Shown here: one piece after another, positions 3,740 to 17,434 of the stretch
Layout: every line of letters starts with the position of its first letter
Numbering within the stretch: position 1 is the stretch's first letter
Assembly (NCBI RefSeq): GCF_018613065.1
Contig: NZ_JAGGQW010000097.1
Location: 1 to 18,399 of the forward strand
Direction of reading: 5' to 3'
Source: Bacillus sp. ISL-7
GTDB taxonomy: Bacteria; Bacillota; Bacilli; Bacillales_B; DSM-18226
Length of the DNA stretch: 18,399 bases
Notes under the pieces: model-generated
What the model saw: the letters and a program-made list of their open reading frames with translations, nothing else
What the model was told of the DNA's origin: nothing
The model's database searches: none
Made by a program: the position numbers and the translations under genes

Positions 3740-3769
3740 CTTCCACTAACCTGCCACGTTAGTTTAAGT
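3740..3769 (+). repeat. Dispersed CCGTTAG repeat, copy 7
   Basis: CTTCCACTAAC and GTTAGTTTAAG form the inverted repeat round CTGCCAC. It is followed by GTGAAAATATTCACAATC, the same downstream variant as copies 4 and 8. Confidence 0.7.
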
Positions 3770-5847: not shown

Positions 5848-6129
5848 TTACGCTAATTGGAATGATTGTTGAATTTCTTTTAATAATTTTTCTGCACCTT
5901 CGCGAGAAAGGATTAATTTACCCTCAGCAAGAGTAAAATTTTTATCAGAAACTTCACCTGTTACTACACAAGTCATATTTGGTTTATATTTTTTCAAGAT
6001 GATCTGATCCCCATCAACGTAAATTTCAAGAGAATCTTTTTCTGCAATATCAAGTGTACGTCTTAATTCGATAGGAATTACTACACGACCTAATTCATCA
6101 ACCTTACGAACAATTCCAGTAGATTTCAT
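5848..6129 (-). CDS. abrB: AbrB-type transition-state regulator, 93 aa
   Basis: The N-terminal DNA-binding half is classical AbrB: MKSTGIVRKVDELGRVVIPI followed by ELRRTLDIAEKDSLEIYVD, which forms the swapped-hairpin dimer. The C-terminal half has KPNMTCVVTGEVSD, with the conserved Cys of the AbrB multimerisation domain. The length is close to chromosomal AbrB (about 94-96 aa), so both domains are intact. AbrB represses many stationary-phase and virulence genes and also itself. The ATG at 6129 has AAGGAG nine bases upstream. The gene has its own promoter (6209-6238) and terminator, so it is monocistronic even though it follows the transfer genes on the same strand. As an accessory copy it may alter host AbrB control or silence nearby genes; that is inference. 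Confidence 0.92.
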   Translation of the reverse strand: MKSTGIVRKVDELGRVVIPIELRRTLDIAEKDSLEIYVDGDQIILKKYKPNMTCVVTGEVSDKNFTLAEGKLILSREGAEKLLKEIQQSFQLA

Positions 6130-6208
6130 TTAACTATTCTCCTTCTTATAAATCATAAAAATATATCTCTATTAATAATCGTCATTTTTCGACATGTTCT
6201 TTAAAAAT

Positions 6209-6238
6209 ATAATACTAGTTAATTTCCATATTCGTCAA
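6209..6238 (-). promoter_or_regulatory. Sigma-A promoter of abrB
   Basis: On the minus strand TTGACG (6233-6238) and TATTAT (6209-6214) are 18 bases apart and about 80 bases before the abrB start. The intervening AT-rich leader is the kind of DNA AbrB itself binds, so autoregulation is plausible but not shown. Confidence 0.65.
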
Positions 6239-6308
6239 TTTGTATTAATATCCATTTATTTAACCCTTATTCTCTTCCTTTTTTTAACCTTTCAATATAC
6301 GATTAATT

Positions 6309-6842
6309 TTACTCTCGACCTGTTAATTGTCCGACAAACTCAACATCATCTATTTTCCAGCCTTGCTCTTTCACATAGATCAAGGACGTTTTGACAATGA
6401 CTGTTTCCGTGTTGGTAACATTATTAAATTCTGTGCTTAGCTTAAATTCATTGAAAAATTCAGCTTCTGTCTTTGAGGATTGATATTCAAAAGGCTTTAA
6501 TCCTACCATTGAAGATTGAACTGATTGGTCCGAATTCGGAAGTTCTATTCCCGAAGGGTGGGTCGCCTTATATCCCTGATCGGTCATAAAGGGCTTAATA
6601 TTCTTATATCGTTCAGCGGTCGTTTTGTAGGTGAAGAAGTTTTTTAGAAATTTTCGGTTTACCTCTAAAGTTTCCGTGTTTTGGATAGATGATAAGGAAG
6701 CGATCTTCTCTTCATAGTTGCGTTGGTTCGCTCTGACTTCTTGTAATTGTGTTCTTAAACTGAAAGCATACACAATAAAAACGACAGCAGCGATAAATCC
6801 AAGCATTAGTAAAATGTAATTTTTCTTTTTATTTGGTTCCAT
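6309..6842 (-). CDS. VirB8-like conjugation protein, 177 aa
   Basis: A short basic start (MEPNKKKN) is followed by one membrane helix at residues 9-28, a coiled-coil-like stretch at about 29-55 (LRTQLQEVRANQRNYEEKIA), and a soluble extracellular domain. This N-in, single-helix layout with an NTF2-like outer domain is that of Gram-positive VirB8/TcpC-type components, which sit at the core of the transfer channel. I see no diagnostic motif, so the call rests on layout and place. It is the last gene of the transfer block, 16 bases after the cell-wall hydrolase gene, with AGAGGTGAAAAGG as its ribosome site. Confidence 0.65.
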   Translation of the reverse strand: MEPNKKKNYILLMLGFIAAVVFIVYAFSLRTQLQEVRANQRNYEEKIASLSSIQNTETLEVNRKFLKNFFTYKTTAERYKNIKPFMTDQGYKATHPSGIELPNSDQSVQSSMVGLKPFEYQSSKTEAEFFNEFKLSTEFNNVTNTETVIVKTSLIYVKEQGWKIDDVEFVGQLTGRE

Positions 6843-6858
6843 GACCTTTTCACCTCTA

Positions 6859-7896
6859 TTACTGAATCCGTCTAAAGCCTAAAAAGGGATAGAAGCTTTT
6901 CCATTGTTCAACAGAAGAATAGGACGTTCCATCGCCGCTATTCGAATTAATAAATTTCCCATCTCCCACATACATTCCAACATGGGAAGCTCCTGGTTTG
7001 TAGGTAGAAAAGAAAACTAAATCGCCAGGCTTAATTTGATCTTCAGGAACGGGTATCGTTTTGTCGTATTGTGATTGAGCTGTCCCGGACAGATCAATTC
7101 CAACTTGTACGAAGGCATATTCTATTAACCCTGAACAATCAAATCCTCCTGCTGCTGGTGTTCTACCACCCCACACATAAGGTCGGCCAAGAAACTGATT
7201 CATAATAGCAAGGACTTCCTCCACATCAAAGCGTTGGGTACCATCACCTACAACGACAACAATGTCATTTCCACCATTATAATAGCGAAGCACATGTTCC
7301 ACATAATCCACGTCACCGTATCGGGACCATCCCATTTTAGCAGCCATCAACTGACTAAATTCACTAGCTGTTTCTTTGGAATATCCCCCGCGCTGTAATG
7401 CGTAATCAATAAAGCCATTTCCGAAGTTGTACGATTGCAAAGCTAGGTTTATGTCGCCTTTGGCTTGCTTCATCACCTTTGCAAAATGTTCCACTCCGAT
7501 TTGAATCGAATATTCAGGGTCAGTTATGGTTCCAGGAGGAAGTCCGATTGATTCCGAAGATTGCATCACATCTAACTGCCGTCCACCGGACTCCTGTTGA
7601 ATGAGGGCCATGATCAATCCGACATATTCTCCAACTCCATTTTGTTCGGCATACTTCCGAATTAAAGGCTCGTATCTCAAAACATCAGCTGACACTTTAG
7701 CTGTGCCCCCGGATCCTTCTCCCGACATTCCTCCTTCAAACTGATTCTCACCCCCCAAGCTAATAGAAATAAATAAAGCGATTCCGAAAATAGATGTGAG
7801 AAGAAGAAGGATACCAGCAATAATCGAAGTCAAAGGGTTTTTAAGAACGGCTATAGTTCTAGCAACTTTTACACCTTTCTCTAAAACACCTTGCAT
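6859..7896 (-). CDS. CwlT-like bifunctional cell-wall hydrolase, 345 aa
   Basis: One membrane segment (residues about 22-47) and a glycine/serine linker lead to two catalytic domains. Residues about 70-205 form a lysozyme-like domain with the likely catalytic Glu102 in LIQQESGG and ALQSYNFGNGFIDYAL, as in the muramidase half of CwlT. Residues about 222-345 are an NlpC/P60 DL-endopeptidase with Cys254 (GGFDCSGLIEY), His305 (ASHVGMYVG) and a third polar residue, Asn317 (FINSNSG), 12 positions later. Such proteins, like CwlT of ICEBs1, open the peptidoglycan so the conjugation channel can pass (VirB1 role). The start is ATG 7896 with AAAGGAG. It lies between the VirB6-like and VirB8-like genes. 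Both active sites look intact although the operon is broken upstream. Confidence 0.92.
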   Translation of the reverse strand: MQGVLEKGVKVARTIAVLKNPLTSIIAGILLLLTSIFGIALFISISLGGENQFEGGMSGEGSGGTAKVSADVLRYEPLIRKYAEQNGVGEYVGLIMALIQQESGGRQLDVMQSSESIGLPPGTITDPEYSIQIGVEHFAKVMKQAKGDINLALQSYNFGNGFIDYALQRGGYSKETASEFSQLMAAKMGWSRYGDVDYVEHVLRYYNGGNDIVVVVGDGTQRFDVEEVLAIMNQFLGRPYVWGGRTPAAGGFDCSGLIEYAFVQVGIDLSGTAQSQYDKTIPVPEDQIKPGDLVFFSTYKPGASHVGMYVGDGKFINSNSGDGTSYSSVEQWKSFYPFLGFRRIQ

Positions 7897-7988
7897 AGGC
7901 TCTCCTTTCTAAAAGCAGTTCTGACGCAGTGAAACAAGCATTGTTCATGAAATAAAATGTAATTGCGTCATAATACTTTTCTCCAACA

Positions 7989-9926
7989 TTATTTTCGCTG
8001 TTTAGTGCTTGGGTTTCTACTTTCTGATCTTTTGACATTTTCAGTAGATGGATTCGCATTTCTCGATTTAATTTGTTGTTGAGCTTCCCATTGAGTGAGA
8101 TGTTTGTCCGATTCTCTTGAAGCTGCTACTTCATTTTTACTGTCCATTCTTCCTGACGGACTACAGTGAGAGGAAGGTTTAACCTCTTCGTTTTTTCTAG
8201 CTTCTCGATTGGAATTTCGAGCCGCCTGACTAGAATGACTACTCTTACTAGCCTCTTCACCTTTTCCACTTTTGTAATCATCTAAATGCACAATACCAGC
8301 ATTTCGTGAAGCTGAACGTGGGGCTGCTCCTGCTGCCAATCTAGCAGCTGCAGTTTTCCCACTTTTACCAATAACTTGTTGCCCTATATTGTTGCTAGAT
8401 TCTTGTTTTTGAGGGGTATTTTCTCCCCCTGCATTTCGGTGTTTTGATCGGGTTCCACTCGTTACTATACCAGGTGTAGCAGTTGAAGCCATTTTCTGTC
8501 CTGCTCCTTCTTCACCTAATGGAAACCCTTCTTGACGTTTTTTATACTGATGATTTTTATAAACCTGCCCCACCATTCTTTTTGCCCCTTTGAACCCTTT
8601 TTCGCCAGCGTCACCCATCTTACTAAAGGAGTTTGTTGTCACTCTCTCGACGACTTGCTGACCTTGTATCATCCCTGCTGAAGCAACTTCGAATAGTTCA
8701 GATCGGTATTTAAATAAGCCCCACATGGTAATACAGATCAAGAAAACGACAAATGCATAGCCTTCTACTCCATTCGTGACTTTGACCGACTCGTAAAGCA
8801 AGCTAACAATTCCCGTAATGACAGCGATTAAAAGCACCAATCCTGCTTTCATCAGTAACACGCCTACGATCTTTTTTCCGTGGTTTAGCGCACTTTCACT
8901 ATAAGAGGGGATTAACGAAAGAACGAGTGGAATTCCCGTGAAGATCACTAAGGCTAGGAACCATACTTGAAGCAAAAACTTAAAGATTCCTAACAACAAA
9001 ACAGGAATCGAAAGGGCAATGGTGGAAATGATCGTAACGATTAAATACCCAAATCGTTCACCGCTAAAATCCGGTGTCATTTGCTTGTTGTCAAAATTGG
9101 CTACTTCATCACTTACAATAACTTTTCTTTTCTCTTTTCCTTCCTTTGTATAAGGCTTAATTTCCAAAAGTTTATCTACTCGGTTTGGATCCTCACTTAC
9201 AATATCCGCTTCCTTCGTTGAGCCATAATTTAAAAGTAAATACGGACGCTTGACCATAAGATTAAACAATTGATTTTCTAATACCGCCATTCCTTCTTTG
9301 GGATTATAGGCTGCGTTGCTGTCAAATCCATCAGAACTAACAAGAACGTTTACCGAGCTGGCAATCCCTTCTAGTTCCGCCCCTCTGTCATTCAGCCATT
9401 TGATATTTCCTGTTGCATCTGAATAAAACCAAAAGGTGAGAACCATGATAGCCAAAGCGCCGACGATTGCTTTTACTGCATGACCGACTTGTTGATTGAC
9501 AAAATAACGCCATGCCGCAGCTCCTCCTACAAAAATGACAAACAAGGATAAGAAAGTCCCTGACATAATTTCATAGATTCGTTGACTCATAATGCCTGCT
9601 TCGCTTGCAATGATACTAATTAAATCGAAAGACATAAGCTGATCAATAGAATAAAGGGTAAAGCTAGCAACTGTTTTATTAAAACCCCACATTCCTTGAT
9701 TAATGGCATGTAAGGCATTATCACCAGTATCTTTAAGACCGTCCCCAATATTCGCTTCCATCCTGTAATGTTCGAGAGGATATTCCTTGCTTTCCAATGT
9801 CACACGGCCAACGGTTACTTCTTTTTTCTGAATAGTTGGTGAGATATCATCGGCAAGTGAAGCTGTTGGCATAAGGAGAAAAAGTATCGCAAAACATATC
9901 CCTATTCCCCGTTTCAGGAATTTCAT
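7989..9926 (-). CDS. VirB6/TrbL-like conjugation membrane protein, 645 aa (CD3337/EF1877 type)
   Basis: A signal-peptide-like start (residues 1-25, ending ASLADD) is followed by an extracytoplasmic stretch. Membrane segments lie at about 124-140, 152-168, 294-314, 317-338, 354-378 and 389-404. A long, very polar tail (about 420-645) is rich in Ser, Asn, Lys, Arg and Glu. This matches the CD3337/EF1877 family of mobilome membrane proteins, the polytopic inner-membrane channel part of Gram-positive type IV secretion (VirB6/TrbL role). The tail is low-complexity and probably cytoplasmic. The start is ATG 9926, with AAGGAGG eight bases upstream and overlapping the end of the lipoprotein gene. The next gene (cell-wall hydrolase) begins 92 bases after its stop. 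Confidence 0.85.
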   Translation of the reverse strand: MKFLKRGIGICFAILFLLMPTASLADDISPTIQKKEVTVGRVTLESKEYPLEHYRMEANIGDGLKDTGDNALHAINQGMWGFNKTVASFTLYSIDQLMSFDLISIIASEAGIMSQRIYEIMSGTFLSLFVIFVGGAAAWRYFVNQQVGHAVKAIVGALAIMVLTFWFYSDATGNIKWLNDRGAELEGIASSVNVLVSSDGFDSNAAYNPKEGMAVLENQLFNLMVKRPYLLLNYGSTKEADIVSEDPNRVDKLLEIKPYTKEGKEKRKVIVSDEVANFDNKQMTPDFSGERFGYLIVTIISTIALSIPVLLLGIFKFLLQVWFLALVIFTGIPLVLSLIPSYSESALNHGKKIVGVLLMKAGLVLLIAVITGIVSLLYESVKVTNGVEGYAFVVFLICITMWGLFKYRSELFEVASAGMIQGQQVVERVTTNSFSKMGDAGEKGFKGAKRMVGQVYKNHQYKKRQEGFPLGEEGAGQKMASTATPGIVTSGTRSKHRNAGGENTPQKQESSNNIGQQVIGKSGKTAAARLAAGAAPRSASRNAGIVHLDDYKSGKGEEASKSSHSSQAARNSNREARKNEEVKPSSHCSPSGRMDSKNEVAASRESDKHLTQWEAQQQIKSRNANPSTENVKRSESRNPSTKQRK

Positions 9927-9937
9927 CCAATCCCTCC

Positions 9938-10369
9938 TTATTTACAGTGGATACAAGCTTCCCGTTCAAATTTCTGTTTAATTTCATCACGGTTAACATT
10001 CAAACTTTTACTTGTATCAACTTTCCACATATCTGCTTTTTTACGAAAAACAATATTATCCTCTACCGCATTATCACCCTTTGGATTATCGAAATCTGCA
10101 AAAACATAGTAGTTCTCTAATTCTTCGTCATAGTAAATTTCAAAACGTATATCTTTATATTCCAACCCTGAATCTACCTTCTTTGCAGTTTTATCAACCT
10201 CATAAGAACCTTTTTTATAAATAAATTCTTGCTGTTTGTCATACTCATTATCAAAATTTGCTTTTTCCCACTCATATGCGATTTTTGCAATTTCTTCAGG
10301 AGAAGTTCCCTGATTGCACCCCGCTAATAGTGCAATCAAAGCAATAATTAAGATTAATAGTTTTTTCAT
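9938..10369 (-). CDS. Small lipoprotein of the transfer operon, 143 aa
   Basis: The first 17 residues form a short basic start and hydrophobic core ending in a lipobox, LLAGC, with Cys18 as the lipidated residue. The mature part is a small acidic domain (about 25-135) with many Tyr and Asp residues, ending CIHCK, a CxxC pair that could form a disulfide or bind metal. The family is unknown to me. The start is ATG 10369, not the TTG just before it: AGGAGG lies ten bases upstream, and the ATG overlaps by one base the TGA that ends the original virB4 frame (TGATG). That overlap means translational coupling in the ancestral operon. The premature TAG in virB4 may weaken it. Confidence 0.75.
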   Translation of the reverse strand: MKKLLILIIALIALLAGCNQGTSPEEIAKIAYEWEKANFDNEYDKQQEFIYKKGSYEVDKTAKKVDSGLEYKDIRFEIYYDEELENYYVFADFDNPKGDNAVEDNIVFRKKADMWKVDTSKSLNVNRDEIKQKFEREACIHCK

Positions 10370-11898
10370 CAAATAAATGCCTCCTCGGTTTCTGCTCTGC
10401 CTCGGTCCTTTTCTTTTGTATTGAAGGCACTAATCCATTCGTTAAACAACACATCAGTTTGAATTTTGGCAGTACGACCCTACATGTCTTCTACAATACA
10501 CTGACCTTCTGTCAGATTTTTCAGCATATCCCGATTCTCTTTGTTATCCTCCATGCCAAGAAACTCAATGATATTGGCTGCTTCTTCTGTCGTCTTTGCT
10601 TTAAAAGCAAATTTCGTTCCTATATTTTCTTTAATTTGTGGCTTGTTATATTCATAAGTGGACTGTGTAATGATATAAACGGCTGACCGTAAGGAACGGC
10701 CAGTACGCAACAATTCATTAATGAGTCGATCACCGGCGCCTGTATTCATCAGCATCCACGCTTCTTCGAAAATGGTTAACTTCACGACCGAATCATCACG
10801 AGCAAATTTCGTGGCAAATTTCGCTAATGGCTGCATGAGTGCAACGGCAATGTGTTCGTCACGAGTGGCAGCCTTCTCGCCTTCATCTGGAAGATTCAAG
10901 TTTTGAATCTGCAAGATATTCACTTGTTCATTAAGACTTATCCCTTCCACATCCCCCTCTGAAAACATTAACTTTGCAACCCCATTTGTGCCGATTTCAT
11001 AAAGCAAGTCGCCTACATTTTGAACATCCTGATCGTCAGAATCTTGTAAATAGCGCACAACTTTTAAAAGCCCTGGCTTTTTATCCTGCTGCATAATATA
11101 ACAGACATCTTTATAAATGGCCGTTTTCACATTCCGTTCATTCGACTGAAGCTCGGATAAATATTCAAGAACACCCACGGCTGCATCCTGAGCTTCTTCC
11201 CCTTCAAGGAAGGTAAGGGGGTCAAGTTTCCCTGCATCCTTCTTTTCACTTGATAGAGTAATATAGTTAAAGCTTTCAATTAACTCTTTAAAAAATGGGG
11301 CTTTACGCTCCATTTCAGGCGTAAGCGCCTCTTTGAATTTCTTTTCGAGTTCGTTTTTGGGGTCCGTCATCAGGATTTTGGCCCCAAAAAAGACGGAATT
11401 CAGTAAGATATCTTTTAACATATAAGATTTCCCCATCCCCGTTGGTCCCGAGATCGTAACATGGGGAGAAGAGTACTTGGAACCTTTTAGGCCCAAATGA
11501 GCTAAAAAGGGATGATAAAAAACAAGAGATTGAGAGCTTTCAATGCTTTCTCCTTCATGAGAGATGTTTTTCCCTAAATAAAAACCTACCGTATTACCAA
11601 TTTTGCGTGTAAGAGAGAAAAGGGATTCCGCGAACGATTCAGGAGTAAGAACTTGTTCCCAATCTTCCGCTACGATTTTAGCTGCTGGTAACGATTGATG
11701 GAATAAAAGGAGTTGATCGGCTAATGGCTGCACAATTTCAATTTGTTGGTCTTTAAAATCGATGATGAGCCTTCTGGCTCTTTTTCGGACTTCTTCTTTC
11801 GTCTTACCATATACAACAAAATGGATGTGAGTTCTAAGAAGTGGTTTTCCTTGATTTTTAATTTGATTTTCTAATTCATGTAAAAGCTCTCGCCCTGT
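10369..11898 (-). pseudogene. VirB4/TraE-type conjugation ATPase, N-terminus lost and internal TAG
   Basis: VirB4 ATPases power pilus or channel assembly and substrate transfer in type IV secretion. Walker A (ISGPTGMGKSY, codons near 11448-11425) and Walker B (LTIFEEAW, near 10773) are intact, followed by GRSLRSAVYIITQS. The frame is open from 11898, where it reads GRELLHELEN; upstream of the Arg-Gly codons it enters a CCGTTAG repeat and stops. About 250-350 residues of N-terminus are missing compared with usual members. Near the C-terminus, GQCIVEDM is followed by TAG (10480-10482). The same frame then continues GRTAKIQTDVLFNEWISAF for 36 codons to a TGA at 10369-10371. Family members have Tyr-Gly-Arg there, so the TAG most likely replaced a Tyr codon. 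Two independent lesions make it a pseudogene. Confidence 0.85.
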
Positions 11899-11918
11899 TC
11901 AACTAACGCACCCGTTAG
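11893..11918 (+). repeat. Dispersed CCGTTAG repeat, copy 8, left half (IS-A target)
   Basis: GTTCAACTAAC followed by GCACCCGTTAG, ending at 11918 where IS-A begins. Its right half (TTTAAGTACAATATTTCACA) is found 3.2 kb away at 15144. Joined, they make a standard copy like those at 2245 and 3740. The repeat also marks the exact point where the virB4 frame is broken. Confidence 0.75.
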
Positions 11919-11977
11919 CCATCCATGAAGCGCAAAAATCAGCGCTTCACCACAGAGAATGAAAATGGGTTAGAACC

Positions 11978-12141
11978 GTCAATACTGATTCTACGGCTGG
12001 GAGAGGAAGGTCGCTGAACTATGGTGCGTTAGAGCCCATCCGTTAGTCTGACTCCACCGACCACGGTGCACCACTGACTGTCGCTCCCTTACGGGAAGCA
12101 CACATGGTAGATTAATCCTATTCTGGTTGTTGCACCAGCCT
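11978..12141 (+). ncRNA. Bridge-RNA candidate of IS-A
   Basis: The region aligns with 13601-13763 of IS-B as a conserved scaffold. Shared blocks include GTCAAT, TACGGCTGG, GGAAGGTCG, GAACTATGGTGC, CGACCA, GGTGCACCAC, GATTAATC and GTTGCACCAG, with variable bases in two loops. In the first loop (enclosed by GGTGC/GCACC) ATCCGTTAG at 12038-12046 matches the insertion site ACCCGTTAG, with the one difference a G-U wobble to the bottom strand. In the second loop CATGGTAG (12103-12110) equals the IS-A right end. These are the places of the left target guide and left donor guide in the IS621 bridge RNA. The shorter right guides are not clear to me. Ends are approximate. Confidence 0.75.
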
Positions 12142-12177
12142 CTAATTATAATGATCGCCGTAGAAAGGATGTTTTCA

Positions 12178-13401
12178 ATGGATGTAGTCATTGAACGAGC
12201 ATGCGGTATGGATGTCCATAAGGACAATATTACTGCCTGTATTTTGACACCTGAAGGAAAGGAGATTCAAACGTTCTCTACTAAAACTGTATTTCTTTTA
12301 CAGTTGGTTGACTGGATTAAACAACATAATTGTACCCATGTCGCCATGGAAAGCACGAGTGTTTATTGGAAGCCTATTGTGAATTTACTGGAAGCTGAGG
12401 ATATCGAGTTTTTAGTGGTGAATGCCCAACATATGAAGGCTGTTCCAGGACGAAAGACAGATGTGAAGGATGCAGAATGGATTGCCAAACTTCTTCGCCA
12501 TGGATTACTTAAAGCCAGTTATATCCCTGACCGAAATCAACGTGAATTGCGTGAACTCGTTCGATATCGTCGAAGTATTATCGAGGAGCGTGCCAGACAA
12601 CATAATCGAATCCAAAAAGTGTTAGAAGGCGCGAACATTAAGTTGGGATCTGTGGTCTCAGATGTGTTAGGTGTTTCAGCACGAGAAATGCTTGATGCCA
12701 TTGCCGATGGTGAAGAGGACCCTGAAAAACTAGCAAACTTCGCCCGACGCAGCATGAAAAAAAAGAAAGAAGAACTGGAACTCGCCCTAAAAGGCTACAT
12801 TAATTCACATCAACTCCTCATGTTAAAAACCATTTTAGGTCATATTGATTTTCTTACTGAGCAAATCGAGATGCTTGATAAGGAAGTTGCGGACAGAGTC
12901 AGTTCCCATCAGGAAGATGAATCACGATTGGATTCGATTCCTGGTATAGCGACCAGAATGGCTGAGCAAATTCTATCCGAAATTGGGACTGATGTAAAAA
13001 AACAATTCCCCACTGCAGCTCATATGTGTTCTTGGGCAGGATTAGTTCCTGGGCAAAATGAAAGTGCTGGAAAAAGAAAATCAGCCAAAACTAAAAAAGG
13101 AAATAAGTATTTAAGATCGGCGTTAACAGAAGCAGCTCATTCAGTAAGAGGATCCAAAAACTATCTCGGAGCACTGTATAGACGTACAGCATCCCGAAAA
13201 GGTAAGAAACGTGCTGGTATTGTAGTCGCTCACGCAATGTTACGTATCTCTTATTATCTCTTAACCCGAAAAGAAATGTATGTAGACTTAGGCGAAGACT
13301 ACTTTGATAAGCAGAGACAACAATCTATCGTTCGACATTCACTGAGACGACTCGAAAGTTTAGGATACACCGTTACGTTAGAAGAACCTAAAGCCTCTTA
13401 A
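12178..13401 (+). CDS. IS110-family transposase/recombinase of IS-A, 407 aa
   Basis: The N-terminal RuvC-like DEDD domain (PF01548) has Asp12 (GMDVHKD), Glu58 (AMEST), Asp95 and Asp98 (KTDVKDAEW). The C-terminal Transposase_20 domain (PF02371) runs from LDSIPGI to the serine motif PGQNESAGKRKS, with the catalytic Ser296. The start is ATG 12178, eight bases after AAAGGA; the frame is open further upstream but that part is bridge-RNA sequence. The enzyme joins target and donor DNA under guidance of the bridge RNA just upstream. All catalytic residues are present and the frame is unbroken, so it may be active. Confidence 0.95.
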   Translation: MDVVIERACGMDVHKDNITACILTPEGKEIQTFSTKTVFLLQLVDWIKQHNCTHVAMESTSVYWKPIVNLLEAEDIEFLVVNAQHMKAVPGRKTDVKDAEWIAKLLRHGLLKASYIPDRNQRELRELVRYRRSIIEERARQHNRIQKVLEGANIKLGSVVSDVLGVSAREMLDAIADGEEDPEKLANFARRSMKKKKEELELALKGYINSHQLLMLKTILGHIDFLTEQIEMLDKEVADRVSSHQEDESRLDSIPGIATRMAEQILSEIGTDVKKQFPTAAHMCSWAGLVPGQNESAGKRKSAKTKKGNKYLRSALTEAAHSVRGSKNYLGALYRRTASRKGKKRAGIVVAHAMLRISYYLLTRKEMYVDLGEDYFDKQRQQSIVRHSLRRLESLGYTVTLEEPKAS

Positions 13402-13600
13402 TCCAGTTACTTTCTAAACCATAGATCAATGAATCTGGCGCTCTCCCCTTTTTTAAAAAATGATTGAGCTGCGTCCTCTTTAGTATTGCCTTTTTCTCTG
13501 TGTTACAGAAGTTAATTTTCATGGTAGACAACCATGCCGCGTTGCGGCACCATCAAATGAATGAAAATGTTTTTATACTAGTCTAGTTCCCCTTCCTCCT

Positions 13601-13763
13601 GTCAATCCTGATAATACGGCTGGCGAAGGAAGGTCGATGAACTATGGTGCTTTTAAGCCCGCATGGTAGACTGATTCACTACGACCAGGTGCACCACAAA
13701 TTGTTGCTCTCGAATGAGAAGCACGCAGGATAGATTAATCTTATATGGTTGTTGCACCAGCCT
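13601..13763 (+). ncRNA. Bridge-RNA candidate of IS-B
   Basis: It has the same scaffold as 11978-12141 with different loop bases. The first loop has GCATGGTAG (13661-13669), of which eight bases equal the IS-A right end where IS-B sits. The second loop has CAGGATAG (13726-13733), equal to its own right end. A hairpin just 5' (CCTTCCT with AGGAAGG, 13591-13633) and GCTCTC/GAGAAGC in the middle support a folded RNA. The 3' part has ATGGTTGT, complementary to the left end ACAACCAT, but the same block is also conserved scaffold in IS-A, so I do not count it as a guide. Confidence 0.75.
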
Positions 13764-13795
13764 TAATTTACTTCAGCCTAGGAAGGGGTTTACTA

Positions 13796-15022
13796 ATGGA
13801 TGTTGTATATAATCGCTGTTGTGGACTTGATGTTCACAAAAAGAGTATTACCGCTTGCGCGATTACTCCAAAAGGAAAAGAAATTGAAACATTTGGTACG
13901 ATGACACACGAACTTTTCCAATTGGTGGATTGGATTAAAAGCAAACGCTGTACTCATGTTGCCATGGAAAGTACAGGTGTGTATTGGAAGCCAATCTACA
14001 ATCTACTAGAACTTGAAGAAATACAACCGATGGTTGTAAATGCTGCTCATATCAAGGCTGTTCCGGGGCGTAAAACTGATGTTAAAGATGCAGAATGGAT
14101 TGCGAAATTGCTTCGCCACGGTCTTCTTCAACACAGTTATATCCCTAATAGGGAACAAAGAGAACTACGTGAGTTAGTTCGATACCGTCGTAGTCTAATT
14201 GAAGAAAGGGCTAGGGAGATTAGTAGAATCCAAAAGGTTCTAGAAGGTGCTAATATTAAACTTTCTTCAGTTGCGACTGACATTATGGGTGTCTCAGGTC
14301 GAGCAATGATTGAAGCGATTATTAACGGTATAAATGATCCACAAACATTATCAAGCCTAGCTAAAAGAAGTTTGAAGAAAAAAAAGGATGATTTAGAACG
14401 TGCTTTAGTAGGATCCGTTGGACCCCATCAAAAGATGATGTTAAAAACTCAACTTTCACACATTGACTTTATGGATCAACAGATTGCACTGTTAAGTGAA
14501 GAAGTCCAGCAACGCATGCAGCCTTATGAAGAAGATATTGAATTGCTTGATTCTATCCCTGGAATTGGCAGAAGTCACGCCGAACAACTTTTGGCTGAAA
14601 TCGGTATTGGCATAGATATTTCAAACCAGTTTCCTTCGGCTCCTCATTTATGTTCATGGGCTGGTATGGTTCCAGGTAACAATGAAAGTGCTGGCAAAAA
14701 AAAGTCCGGAAAAACGAGAAAAGGTAATAAAAAATTGCGAGCCGCACTGGTTGAAGCAGCACATTCGGCAGCTAGGACAAAAAACACCTACCTATCTTCC
14801 CAATACCAACGTTTGGCGGCAAGAGTTGGTAAAAAACGCGCAGCAGTTGCGGTTGGACATACCATATTAACAATTGCATATCACATGTTAAAGAGAAGAG
14901 AACCCTATATTGAGTTGGGCGCAGATTACTTTGACCGACGAAAGAAAGAAATCGTGATCAAACAATCTATCAAACGGTTAGAGACTCTTGGTTGTAAAGT
15001 AACAGTTGAAGCAATAGCATAG
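13796..15022 (+). CDS. IS110-family transposase/recombinase of IS-B, 408 aa
   Basis: It has the same domain plan as the IS-A enzyme, with the acidic residues at identical positions (Asp12, Glu58, Asp95, Asp98) and the catalytic Ser298 in PGNNESAGKKKS. The start is ATG 13796, with AAGGGG eight to ten bases upstream. Long blocks such as AVPGRKTDVKDAEWIAKLL are shared with IS-A, while the middle (about 160-280) has diverged. The frame is intact. Its target site on IS-A suggests it can follow IS-A to any place IS-A moves. Confidence 0.95.
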   Translation: MDVVYNRCCGLDVHKKSITACAITPKGKEIETFGTMTHELFQLVDWIKSKRCTHVAMESTGVYWKPIYNLLELEEIQPMVVNAAHIKAVPGRKTDVKDAEWIAKLLRHGLLQHSYIPNREQRELRELVRYRRSLIEERAREISRIQKVLEGANIKLSSVATDIMGVSGRAMIEAIINGINDPQTLSSLAKRSLKKKKDDLERALVGSVGPHQKMMLKTQLSHIDFMDQQIALLSEEVQQRMQPYEEDIELLDSIPGIGRSHAEQLLAEIGIGIDISNQFPSAPHLCSWAGMVPGNNESAGKKKSGKTRKGNKKLRAALVEAAHSAARTKNTYLSSQYQRLAARVGKKRAAVAVGHTILTIAYHMLKRREPYIELGADYFDRRKKEIVIKQSIKRLETLGCKVTVEAIA

Positions 15023-15143
15023 CTATGGTCATAAAAATATAGTTAAAATTAGAACCCCAGATCTTTTTAAAAAAAATCGATCTTACAGGGTTTAGTTTCG
15101 TATTGCCAAAAATGCCCTTTACCCATTACTATTTTCAGGATAG

Positions 15144-15168
15144 TTTAAGTACAATATTTCACAATCTT
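15144..15168 (+). repeat. Dispersed CCGTTAG repeat, copy 8, right half
   Basis: TTTAAGTACAATATTTCACA and on to AATC match the downstream part of copies 4 and 7. The left half is at 11893-11918; IS-A and IS-B lie between. Confidence 0.75.
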
Positions 15169-15174
15169 TCCTGT

Positions 15175-16593: not shown

Positions 16594-17434
16594 TTGTTAT
16601 TATCAAAAGCCTGGGAACTTTATGAATCAGATAAAAGGATTGAAGGATTCTCTCCTCATACATTAAAAGCGTATAGGCTCCAATCTAAGCTACTTATCCA
16701 ATTCTTTAACGATGTGAATATTGAATCATTGACGACTGATCAGCTGAAAGGATACTTAGCAAAATCCAGTGAACACCTAAAACCATCAAGTTTGGCTCAT
16801 CGAATTCGATTTATTAAATCGATATTTCGTTGGTCACACGAGGAAGGGCATATGCCAAAAAATCCAGCTGCCAAAATTAAAGAACCTAAACAAGGAAAAC
16901 GGATTCCAAAATTTTTAACGGAGAGAGAAATTGAACATTTGAGGGAAGCGTGTTTTACTCCAATGGAAAAGGCATTATTCGAATTTATGTTTTCAACTGG
17001 TTGTAGAATAGGTGAAATTGTTTCTCTTGATAAAAATTGCATTAATTGGTCAAATCATTCTGCCATTGTGCTTGGAAAAGGTGATAAGGAAAGGGAGGTC
17101 TACTTTAATATACGGTGTGAAAATCTGGCTCAAGCGATACTTAGACCTTCGCCAGGATAAAGACCCAGCTATTTTTGTTACTGAACGGCACCCACATAGA
17201 ATGAGTATTGGGCAGATGAGGTACATCATAAAAAGAATATCAAGTCGGGCAGGGATCAACAAAGAAATTCATCCACACCAACTACGCCATAGCTATGCCA
17301 CACACCTATTGAACAACGGAGCTCCAATTGATGTAATTCAAAGTTTACTTGGTCACGAAAAAAGCGAGACCACTAGGATTTATGCTCAGTTAAGTGGAAA
17401 CCTTAGAAGAGAATTTTATAAAAAATATTTTTAA
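16594..17434 (+). pseudogene. Tyrosine recombinase (XerC/D-like), broken by one frameshift
   Basis: The N-terminal SAM-like core-binding domain (SPHTLKAYRLQ, residues about 1-90) and the catalytic domain are both readable but in two frames. The first frame has the first catalytic Arg in STGCRIGEI and the beta-hairpin Lys in GKGDKERE, then runs into a stop at 17158-17160. The second frame, shifted by one base, continues KIWLKRYLDLRQD and has HPHQLRHSYATHLL (His, Arg), LLGHEKSETT (His) and IYAQ (the nucleophile Tyr). One extra base near 17117-17121 explains the shift. Restored, the protein would be about 280 aa, normal for the family. The start is TTG at 16594 with AAGGAGG upstream. These enzymes cut and join DNA at specific inverted-repeat sites; the CCGTTAG repeats beside it are a tempting but unproven substrate. 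Confidence 0.9.

Follow-up and report, generated by a model that had tools for sequence, protein, structure and literature searches.

What determines the position of two insertion sequences (ISs) of the IS110 group that stand end to end in the genome of Bacillus sp. ISL-7? The window, that is, the whole stretch of 18,399 nucleotides (nt) analyzed here, contains the elements IS-A (1609 base pairs (bp), 11919..13527) and IS-B (1616 bp, 13528..15143), which adjoin in the same direction with zero bases between them; they and their parts lie on the forward strand. Together they split one copy of a dispersed repeat, whose left half, ...CAACTAACGCACCCGTTAG, ends at 11918 (11893..11918) and whose right half, identified from its sequence and by comparison of the joined flanks, reads TTTAAGTACAATATTTCACAATC from 15144 (TTTAAGTACAATATTTCACAATCTTT, 15144..15169). 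Sequence comparisons make it highly probable, in our judgment, that both are autonomous-looking Bacillaceae elements that select their insertion sites by means of a left-end bridge RNA with two loops, the RNA of IS-A being directed to the repeat and that of IS-B to the right end of IS-A-type elements.

The site occupied by IS-A is CACCCGTTAG/TTTAAGTACA (here and below the slash marks the junction). The element, delimited on the left by the target repeat and by its relatives and on the right by its relatives, starts with CCATCCATG at 11919, directly after CCCGTTAG (11911-11918), and the last seven nt of the left repeat half form its left target. A non-coding left end of 259 nt precedes the ATG of the recombinase gene (12178..13401), and 126 nt follow the stop codon; a long left end upstream of the gene with a short right end is the layout of the IS110 group (IS621-like), unlike that of IS1111. 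The predicted bridge RNA (11978..12141, borders approximate) was delineated from an alignment of 90 RNAs and its consensus fold. Its first loop contains the left target guide ATCCGTTAG (12038..12046), which differs from the site ACCCGTTAG only at the second base, a U facing a bottom-strand G, and the complete pairing with one G-U claimed in the first-pass annotation is thus confirmed. The second loop contains the left donor guide CAUGGUAG (12103..12110), which corresponds to CATGGTAG, the right end of IS-A (13520..13527), again as had been claimed. IS-B is organized similarly: its predicted bridge RNA (13601..13764, with borders likewise approximate and taken from the alignment and consensus fold) has in loop 1 the guide GCATGGTAG (13661..13669), corresponding to GCAUGGUAG and to the IS-A right end, and in loop 2 the guide CAGGAUAG (13726..13733), corresponding to CAGGATAG, its own right end (15136..15143), which is followed by TTTAAGTACA. 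In both elements, then, the sequence of loop 1 is that of the adjoining seven to nine bases on the left, the presumed core AG included, and the sequence of loop 2 is that of the element's own right end.

This agreement of loops and flanks is not due to chance, as judged from the sequences of relatives, across which the two covary. Loci encoding relatives of the IS-A recombinase were taken as the best 80 among the matches listed in named genomes (many from Neobacillus or other Bacillaceae, also from Paenibacillus and others), plus extra loci; they are cited by L numbers. The alignment A1 comprises 90 distinct left-end RNAs, including the two of the window. Left boundaries were placed with the help of a CATG motif that lies five bases inside the element, together with the neighboring sequence, and a preceding AG added one point to the score; right boundaries were placed from the sequence ahead of the final eight bases, and a terminal AG was obligatory. 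Variable guide bases were used for neither boundary. Six of the 90 were left out of the guide count (L004, L037, L077-minus, L097, and L105, where no left end was found, and L013, where the guide is deleted) and six out of the donor count (L033, L036, L044, L077-minus, L079, and L080), while the right ends of L111 and L112 were entered by hand. The L013 relative, with its target guide partly deleted, still stands at CCCGTTAG and is probably a dead copy.

The last seven nt of loop 1 are identical to the left flank in 75 of the 84 usable elements and pair with it in 78 if G-U is allowed, the window's two elements included. A guide other than CCGTTAG is found in 26 elements; the first-pass annotation had proposed checking whether the flank varies with the loop, and in 23 of these 26 the own flank is identical to the variant guide (24 with G-U), the common guide fitting the flank instead in two. 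The 13 distinct variant guides include CCTATAG, CCTTTAG, CAGTTAG, CATTTAG, AGGTTAG, GCGTTAG, CCCGCAG, and CGGGCAG, each before its own element. Because the elements are related, the count over distinct guides is the fairer figure: 12 of 14 match fully, a result reached in none of 20,000 re-pairings (mean 0.99). Loop 2 equals the right end over eight nt in 71 of 84 elements (76 with G-U) and follows the right-end variants CATAGTAG, CATGGGAG, CAGGGTAG, and CAGGATAG; where the donor guide is a variant one (27 cases), identity with the right end of the element holds for 20 and pairing for 25. The covariation in 84 elements supports the earlier prediction of an RNA-programmed recombinase aimed at a dispersed Bacillus repeat.

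The first-pass annotation was silent on the programming of IS-B to the end of IS-A. In a family search of 193 genomes, where the best two candidates of each were scored and copy numbers are therefore lower bounds, full-length copies of IS-B were found in at least two genomes (L111, 96% identical, and L112, 92%); in a set of 33 further genomes, partly overlapping this sample, L183 contains IS-B bases 1-1494 at 87%. All three share the loop 1 guide of IS-B, and in each IS-B starts directly behind an IS-A-type right end, which in L183 is CATGATAG and is matched with a G-U pair. Five miniatures of 57-59 bp (L106, L139, L141, L184, and L306) consist of the two ends only, a left-end hairpin of ~41 bp and ~17 bp of right end, and follow CATGGTAG or, in L139, CAAGGTAG with one mismatch. 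Overall, the start is readable in ten left ends of the IS-B type, and nine of these come directly after CATGGTAG or a sequence differing from it at one base; in eight, the preceding sequence is confirmed as an IS-A-type right end. When the final eight bases are disregarded, the ~100 bases ahead of the IS-B start still match right ends that IS-A relatives have at other loci in eight of nine cases, the window included (E values from 7e-9 to 1e-43). In L141 nothing beyond a look-alike of ~25 nt was matched before the miniature and the host is unconfirmed, so that four of the five miniatures stand behind confirmed IS-A-type ends. Since the hosts in L106, L112, L139, L183, and L184 lie at distinct positions, each in a target of its own (CCGTTAG or CATTTAG), these nestings are independent. 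L053/L187, which reaches the edge of its contig at CATGGTAG/ACATCCAT, the latter being the first bases of IS-B, was not counted; L113, L114, L116, and others are remnants with only the right part of IS-B and are uninformative on its left target. Several L numbers denote the same place (L115/L134; L106/L136/L320; L112/L137/L150/L301; L111/L138/L149; L184/L304; L141/L314; L144/L306). The idea that IS-B with this guide is common in other families found no support: GCCCGCATGGTAGACTGA has no exact match in 397 sampled genomes of the order and occurs with one or two mismatches in 16.

Could IS-B stand beside IS-A only through a shared repeat target, or because the repeats are safe places that collect elements? 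The two elements of the window do have the right flank TTTAAGTACA in common, and the repeat harbors many elements, but loop 1 of IS-B reads CATGGTAG and not CCGTTAG, and the eight confirmed nestings involve hosts ranging from full IS-A to derivatives of ~200 bp, which makes such an explanation very improbable. We give as little credence to the suggestion that IS-B found the IS-A end via its donor loop: the right ends CAGGATAG and CATGGTAG share six of eight bases, and donor-like off-targets are described for IS621, but it is the target loop of IS-B that matches CATGGTAG at all eight bases, and the donor loop does not. The sequence of events that we favor starts with IS-A, or a short derivative of it, which would be programmed to the dispersed, palindrome-like repeat CCCGTTAG/TTNAA and would have entered it; IS-B, presumably programmed to the IS-A-type right end CATGGTAG, at which it sits, would then have followed.

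The window itself contains uninterrupted copies of the repeat, CTGCCCCGTTAG/CTTAAGTACA with CGTTAG at 2262 and CTGCCACGTTAG/TTTAAGTG with CGTTAG at 3757, and the same hexamer with the same left context also occurs at 161, 219, 1837, and 3202. With up to three mismatches, CGTTAGTTTAAGTA has eight matches in the window, a number reached in one of 200 shuffles (mean 2.84). Because uninterrupted copies exist, in the window and in related genomes, the left flank belongs to the target and not to the element. Among 74 junctions tried, with IS-B copies and self-matches excluded, the joined outer flanks of 17 match an uninterrupted repeat across the junction. The joined flanks of the window match repeats in L033 and L039; one IS-A base was included in this query by error and appears as a one-base gap in the alignments. 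Excision, which the first-pass annotation expected to restore a normal repeat like the copies it named at 2245 and 3740 (those with CGTTAG at 2262 and 3757), would indeed give such a sequence, and insertion appears scarless and without target duplication, as the joined flanks read like an uninterrupted repeat (paralogous copies). One example is L055, with the guide CCCGCAG: its flanks, once joined, match CTTCCCGCAG/GAGTCTTCGTC at another position of that locus. Of the 61 genomes of the genus, 27 contain the left-side sequence of L016; several copies have the repeat without the element, and element-free homologues of this site read ...GCACCCGTTTG/TTTAAGTGTAG in L190 and ...GCACCCGTTAG/TTGAATA in L203. 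Such empty sites are paralogous or homologous, not proven orthologous, and their 7-mers vary. The least probable alternative, that the left motif is a part of the element copied together with the loop, finds some support in the near-identical copies L015-L017 with a constant CCCTATAG before the left end, but it fails on the motif's presence in uninterrupted window repeats, on the 17 empty junctions, and on the L016 homologues that keep the repeat without the element.

Several further arrangements were noticed around these targets. The flanks of L054, L055, and L062 represent a second kind of repeat (CCCGCAG/GAGTCT or CCCATAG/GAGTCT), targeted by IS-A relatives with the guides CCCGCAG or CCCATAG. 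At L015:4323-4372 a 25-bp segment, the terminal part of an IS-A-type right end, is present in two tandem copies before the right half of the target, perhaps as a scar of an earlier insertion and excision. L124 contains two IS-A-type copies in tandem, the left end of the second apparently missing its initial ~37 bp. A repeated sequence ending CTCCCATGGTAG/TT(G/C)AA, possibly the end of a further element, is seen in L266, L267, L272, L274, L280, L284, L289, and L293 (three genomes, G575, G576, and G417).

Elements of ~357-389 bp with a left end, a predicted bridge RNA, and a right end, but without a recombinase gene, form another group of relatives. In a search where the best 11 candidates per genome were scored, at least 32 copies, 27 with both ends, were found in at least 14 of 61 genomes of one genus (for instance, L104:1419-1799 with a second copy from ~L104:2765, L105, and L012 near 2133). 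All 27 two-ended copies have CCGTTAG as the last seven bases of the guide, and 24 stand behind CCGTTAG; loop 2 is mostly CATGGGAG, their right end. Over the 32 copies the mean minority-base share is 3.0% in the RNA stretch, 18.1% in the adjoining spacer, 14.6% in the tail, and 3.6% in the right end, that is, the RNA part is fivefold less variable than the tail. The plain reading of this pattern would be that the RNA is under selection, or that copies with a functional RNA move preferentially; alternatively, recombinase-free elements may arise repeatedly from autonomous parents. The right end (CATGGGAG or a variant) is visible in 29 recombinase-free elements, and an IS-B-like left end comes after none of them.

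Both recombinases match the Pfam domains DEDD_Tnp_IS110 and Transposase_20 (PF01548/PF02371) and the NCBIfam family of IS110 RNA-guided transposases (NF033542), and that of IS-B (13796..15022) is 63% identical to that of IS-A. For the latter, the IS621 and ISCro4 recombinases are the only relatives of solved structure at an E value of 0.001; the GID, EAT, KTDxxDA, and ESG stretches, which we take to hold the catalytic residues, align. Nothing reached the Rfam gathering score anywhere in the window. That the RNAs are produced, where exactly they end, and that both elements are active, we infer from the sequence.

The right-hand guides, which the first-pass annotation left aside, are partly resolved. 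Only in L054, L055, and L062 are there seven pairs including the core, with GACUCCU facing AGGAGTC. The homologous place in IS-A contains the weak candidate right target guide GACU (12050..12053), and the candidate right donor guide UGGUU (12124..12128) can face AGCCA at the core and left end, a pairing in which relatives with UGAUU keep a mismatch. The right flanks, 51 of 75 of which start with TT, are too uniform to probe the right guide. For IS-B, GAUU or ACU was considered as right target guide and dropped, as was the long right donor guide AUGGUUGU facing ACAACCAT, a sequence common to relatives that fails in L112.

A number of observations weigh against the guide-directed insertion of IS-A and IS-B. 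Because AG was scored or required by the boundary finders, the match of AG itself stands outside the test. Guide and flank disagree in six of 84 elements. The left ends of L073 and L123 look damaged, L082 and L102 each have a single mismatch, and in L044 and L129 it is one base of the guide that is changed. The first four present the same loop at other sites, an outcome that the first-pass annotation had named as contrary to its prediction and that is thus found in a small part of the sample, against 78 elements that pair. Loop 2 disagrees with the right end in eight of 84, five of which look like errors of the right-end finder, while L059 has one base deleted and L070 and L071 have one mismatch each. 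Among the 27 recombinase-free elements, L222 (TCGTTAG, one mismatch) and L260 (GGTTTAG, three) do not fit their guides, and L219 (CCGTTAA) needs G-U. At the place homologous to GACUCCU, IS-A reads GACUCCA, of which only GACU could face AGTT, with three pairs and one G-U. The consensus fold of the 90-RNA alignment has 31 pairs, only five of which show changes on both sides, and the single-sequence folds are no stabler than shuffles (z of -0.72 for IS-A and -0.34 for IS-B). Within 11890-12200, with the circle junction not scanned, no sigma-70-like promoter into the RNA was found.

For IS-B, the copy in L183 is interrupted by ~2.3 kb before its right end, and that in L115 (= L134), internally deleted and with flanks unlike each other, stands behind AATGAAAG, which is unmatched by its guide GCGTGGTAG. 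The uncounted L140 and L143 are weak matches to the IS-B left end; their starts are degenerate, and neither is preceded by an IS-A-type right end. The supply of potential targets also has to be considered: CATGGTAGTTNAA sites were found 45 times in seven genomes, and the loci were examined for 30 of these matches (and for 30 of 33 in a further search). Of the 30 inspected sites, 17 look like IS-A right ends and 13 are not recognizable as such. Because such sites exist outside IS-A right ends, the preference of IS-B beyond the sequence itself is modest; the eight confirmed cases exceed what supply alone would give, though not by much.

That such an IS targets the terminus of a different mobile element has a parallel in IS4321 and IS5075 of the IS1111 group, members of the same superfamily, which Partridge and Hall, in 2003, are said to have described as aimed at the terminal inverted repeats of Tn21-family transposons. 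They differ in their host, a Tn21-family transposon, whereas here both host and guest belong to the IS110 group and the donor loop of the host reads the host's end. IS110 bridge RNAs, natural guide-target covariation, and repeat targets are reported in published work (PMC11208160, PMC11187229, PMC1525189), and the covariation of IS-A is of this published kind. IS-A and IS-B resemble IS621 as described by Durrant et al. 2024 (PMC11208160) in the DEDD/Transposase_20 recombinase, the left-end RNA, the first loop as target guide and the second as donor guide, and also in a core lying inside all pairings, a natural repeat target (REP), and guide-target covariation across orthologues; they differ in the presumed core, AG and not CT, in the repeat, and in the targeting by IS-B of another IS110's end. 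The seekRNAs of ISEc21 and the IS1111 group (Siddiquee et al. 2024, PMC11187229) are alike in their natural re-direction between relatives (ISEc11/ISXne4), but members of that group have the RNA downstream of the gene and are reported to target attC, REP, and linear sites. Target-derived bases were shown there to be needed on both sides of ISEc11, the replacement of those on either side having stopped circle formation (PMC11187229). By analogy, IS-B, in replacing the target-derived bases to the right of IS-A, should stop the formation of IS-A circles and immobilize its host. The REP-targeting ISs of Tobes and Pareja 2006 (PMC1525189) are similarly specific to dispersed palindromes, but concern other phyla and repeats, and the abstract is silent on RNA. 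Among literature titles and abstract openings, covering few subscription papers and no preprints, none dealt with an IS110 element aimed at IS110 ends or with recombinase-free bridge-RNA elements, which is weak evidence of novelty.

Other mobile DNA is also present in the window. On the minus strand, 5848-11733 contains a remnant of a conjugative element with an open reading frame for a TcpF-like ATPase lacking the first ~380 profile positions, a CD3337/EF1877-type membrane protein, and a lysozyme/NlpC hydrolase, as well as a gene for an AbrB-like protein. A tyrosine recombinase gene at 16594-17434 lies in two overlapping frames and is apparently broken.

The recombinase, RNA, donor, and target sets described here are ready parts for assays in laboratory Bacillus, and the Bacillaceae offer a natural guide-target series that includes close relatives re-aimed by one or two bases. 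What looks like guide-directed insertion of one RNA-guided element into another's end offers a testable conflict between programmable recombinases, and a conserved bridge RNA in elements lacking the recombinase would demonstrate that guide and recombinase can exist separately in nature. Tentatively, and with more doubt than confidence, we suggest that IS-B may be a specialist for other members of the IS110 group. Its target guide has the sequence of the IS-A-type donor, perhaps through an earlier transfer from a donor loop into a target loop, and its insertion would immobilize the host; a right end such as CATGGGAG, which has changed in step with its donor guide, would represent an escape from IS-B, and RNA-only elements under selection would borrow a recombinase. 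If true, these autonomous, RNA-only, and end-only RNA-guided elements would constitute a small food chain.

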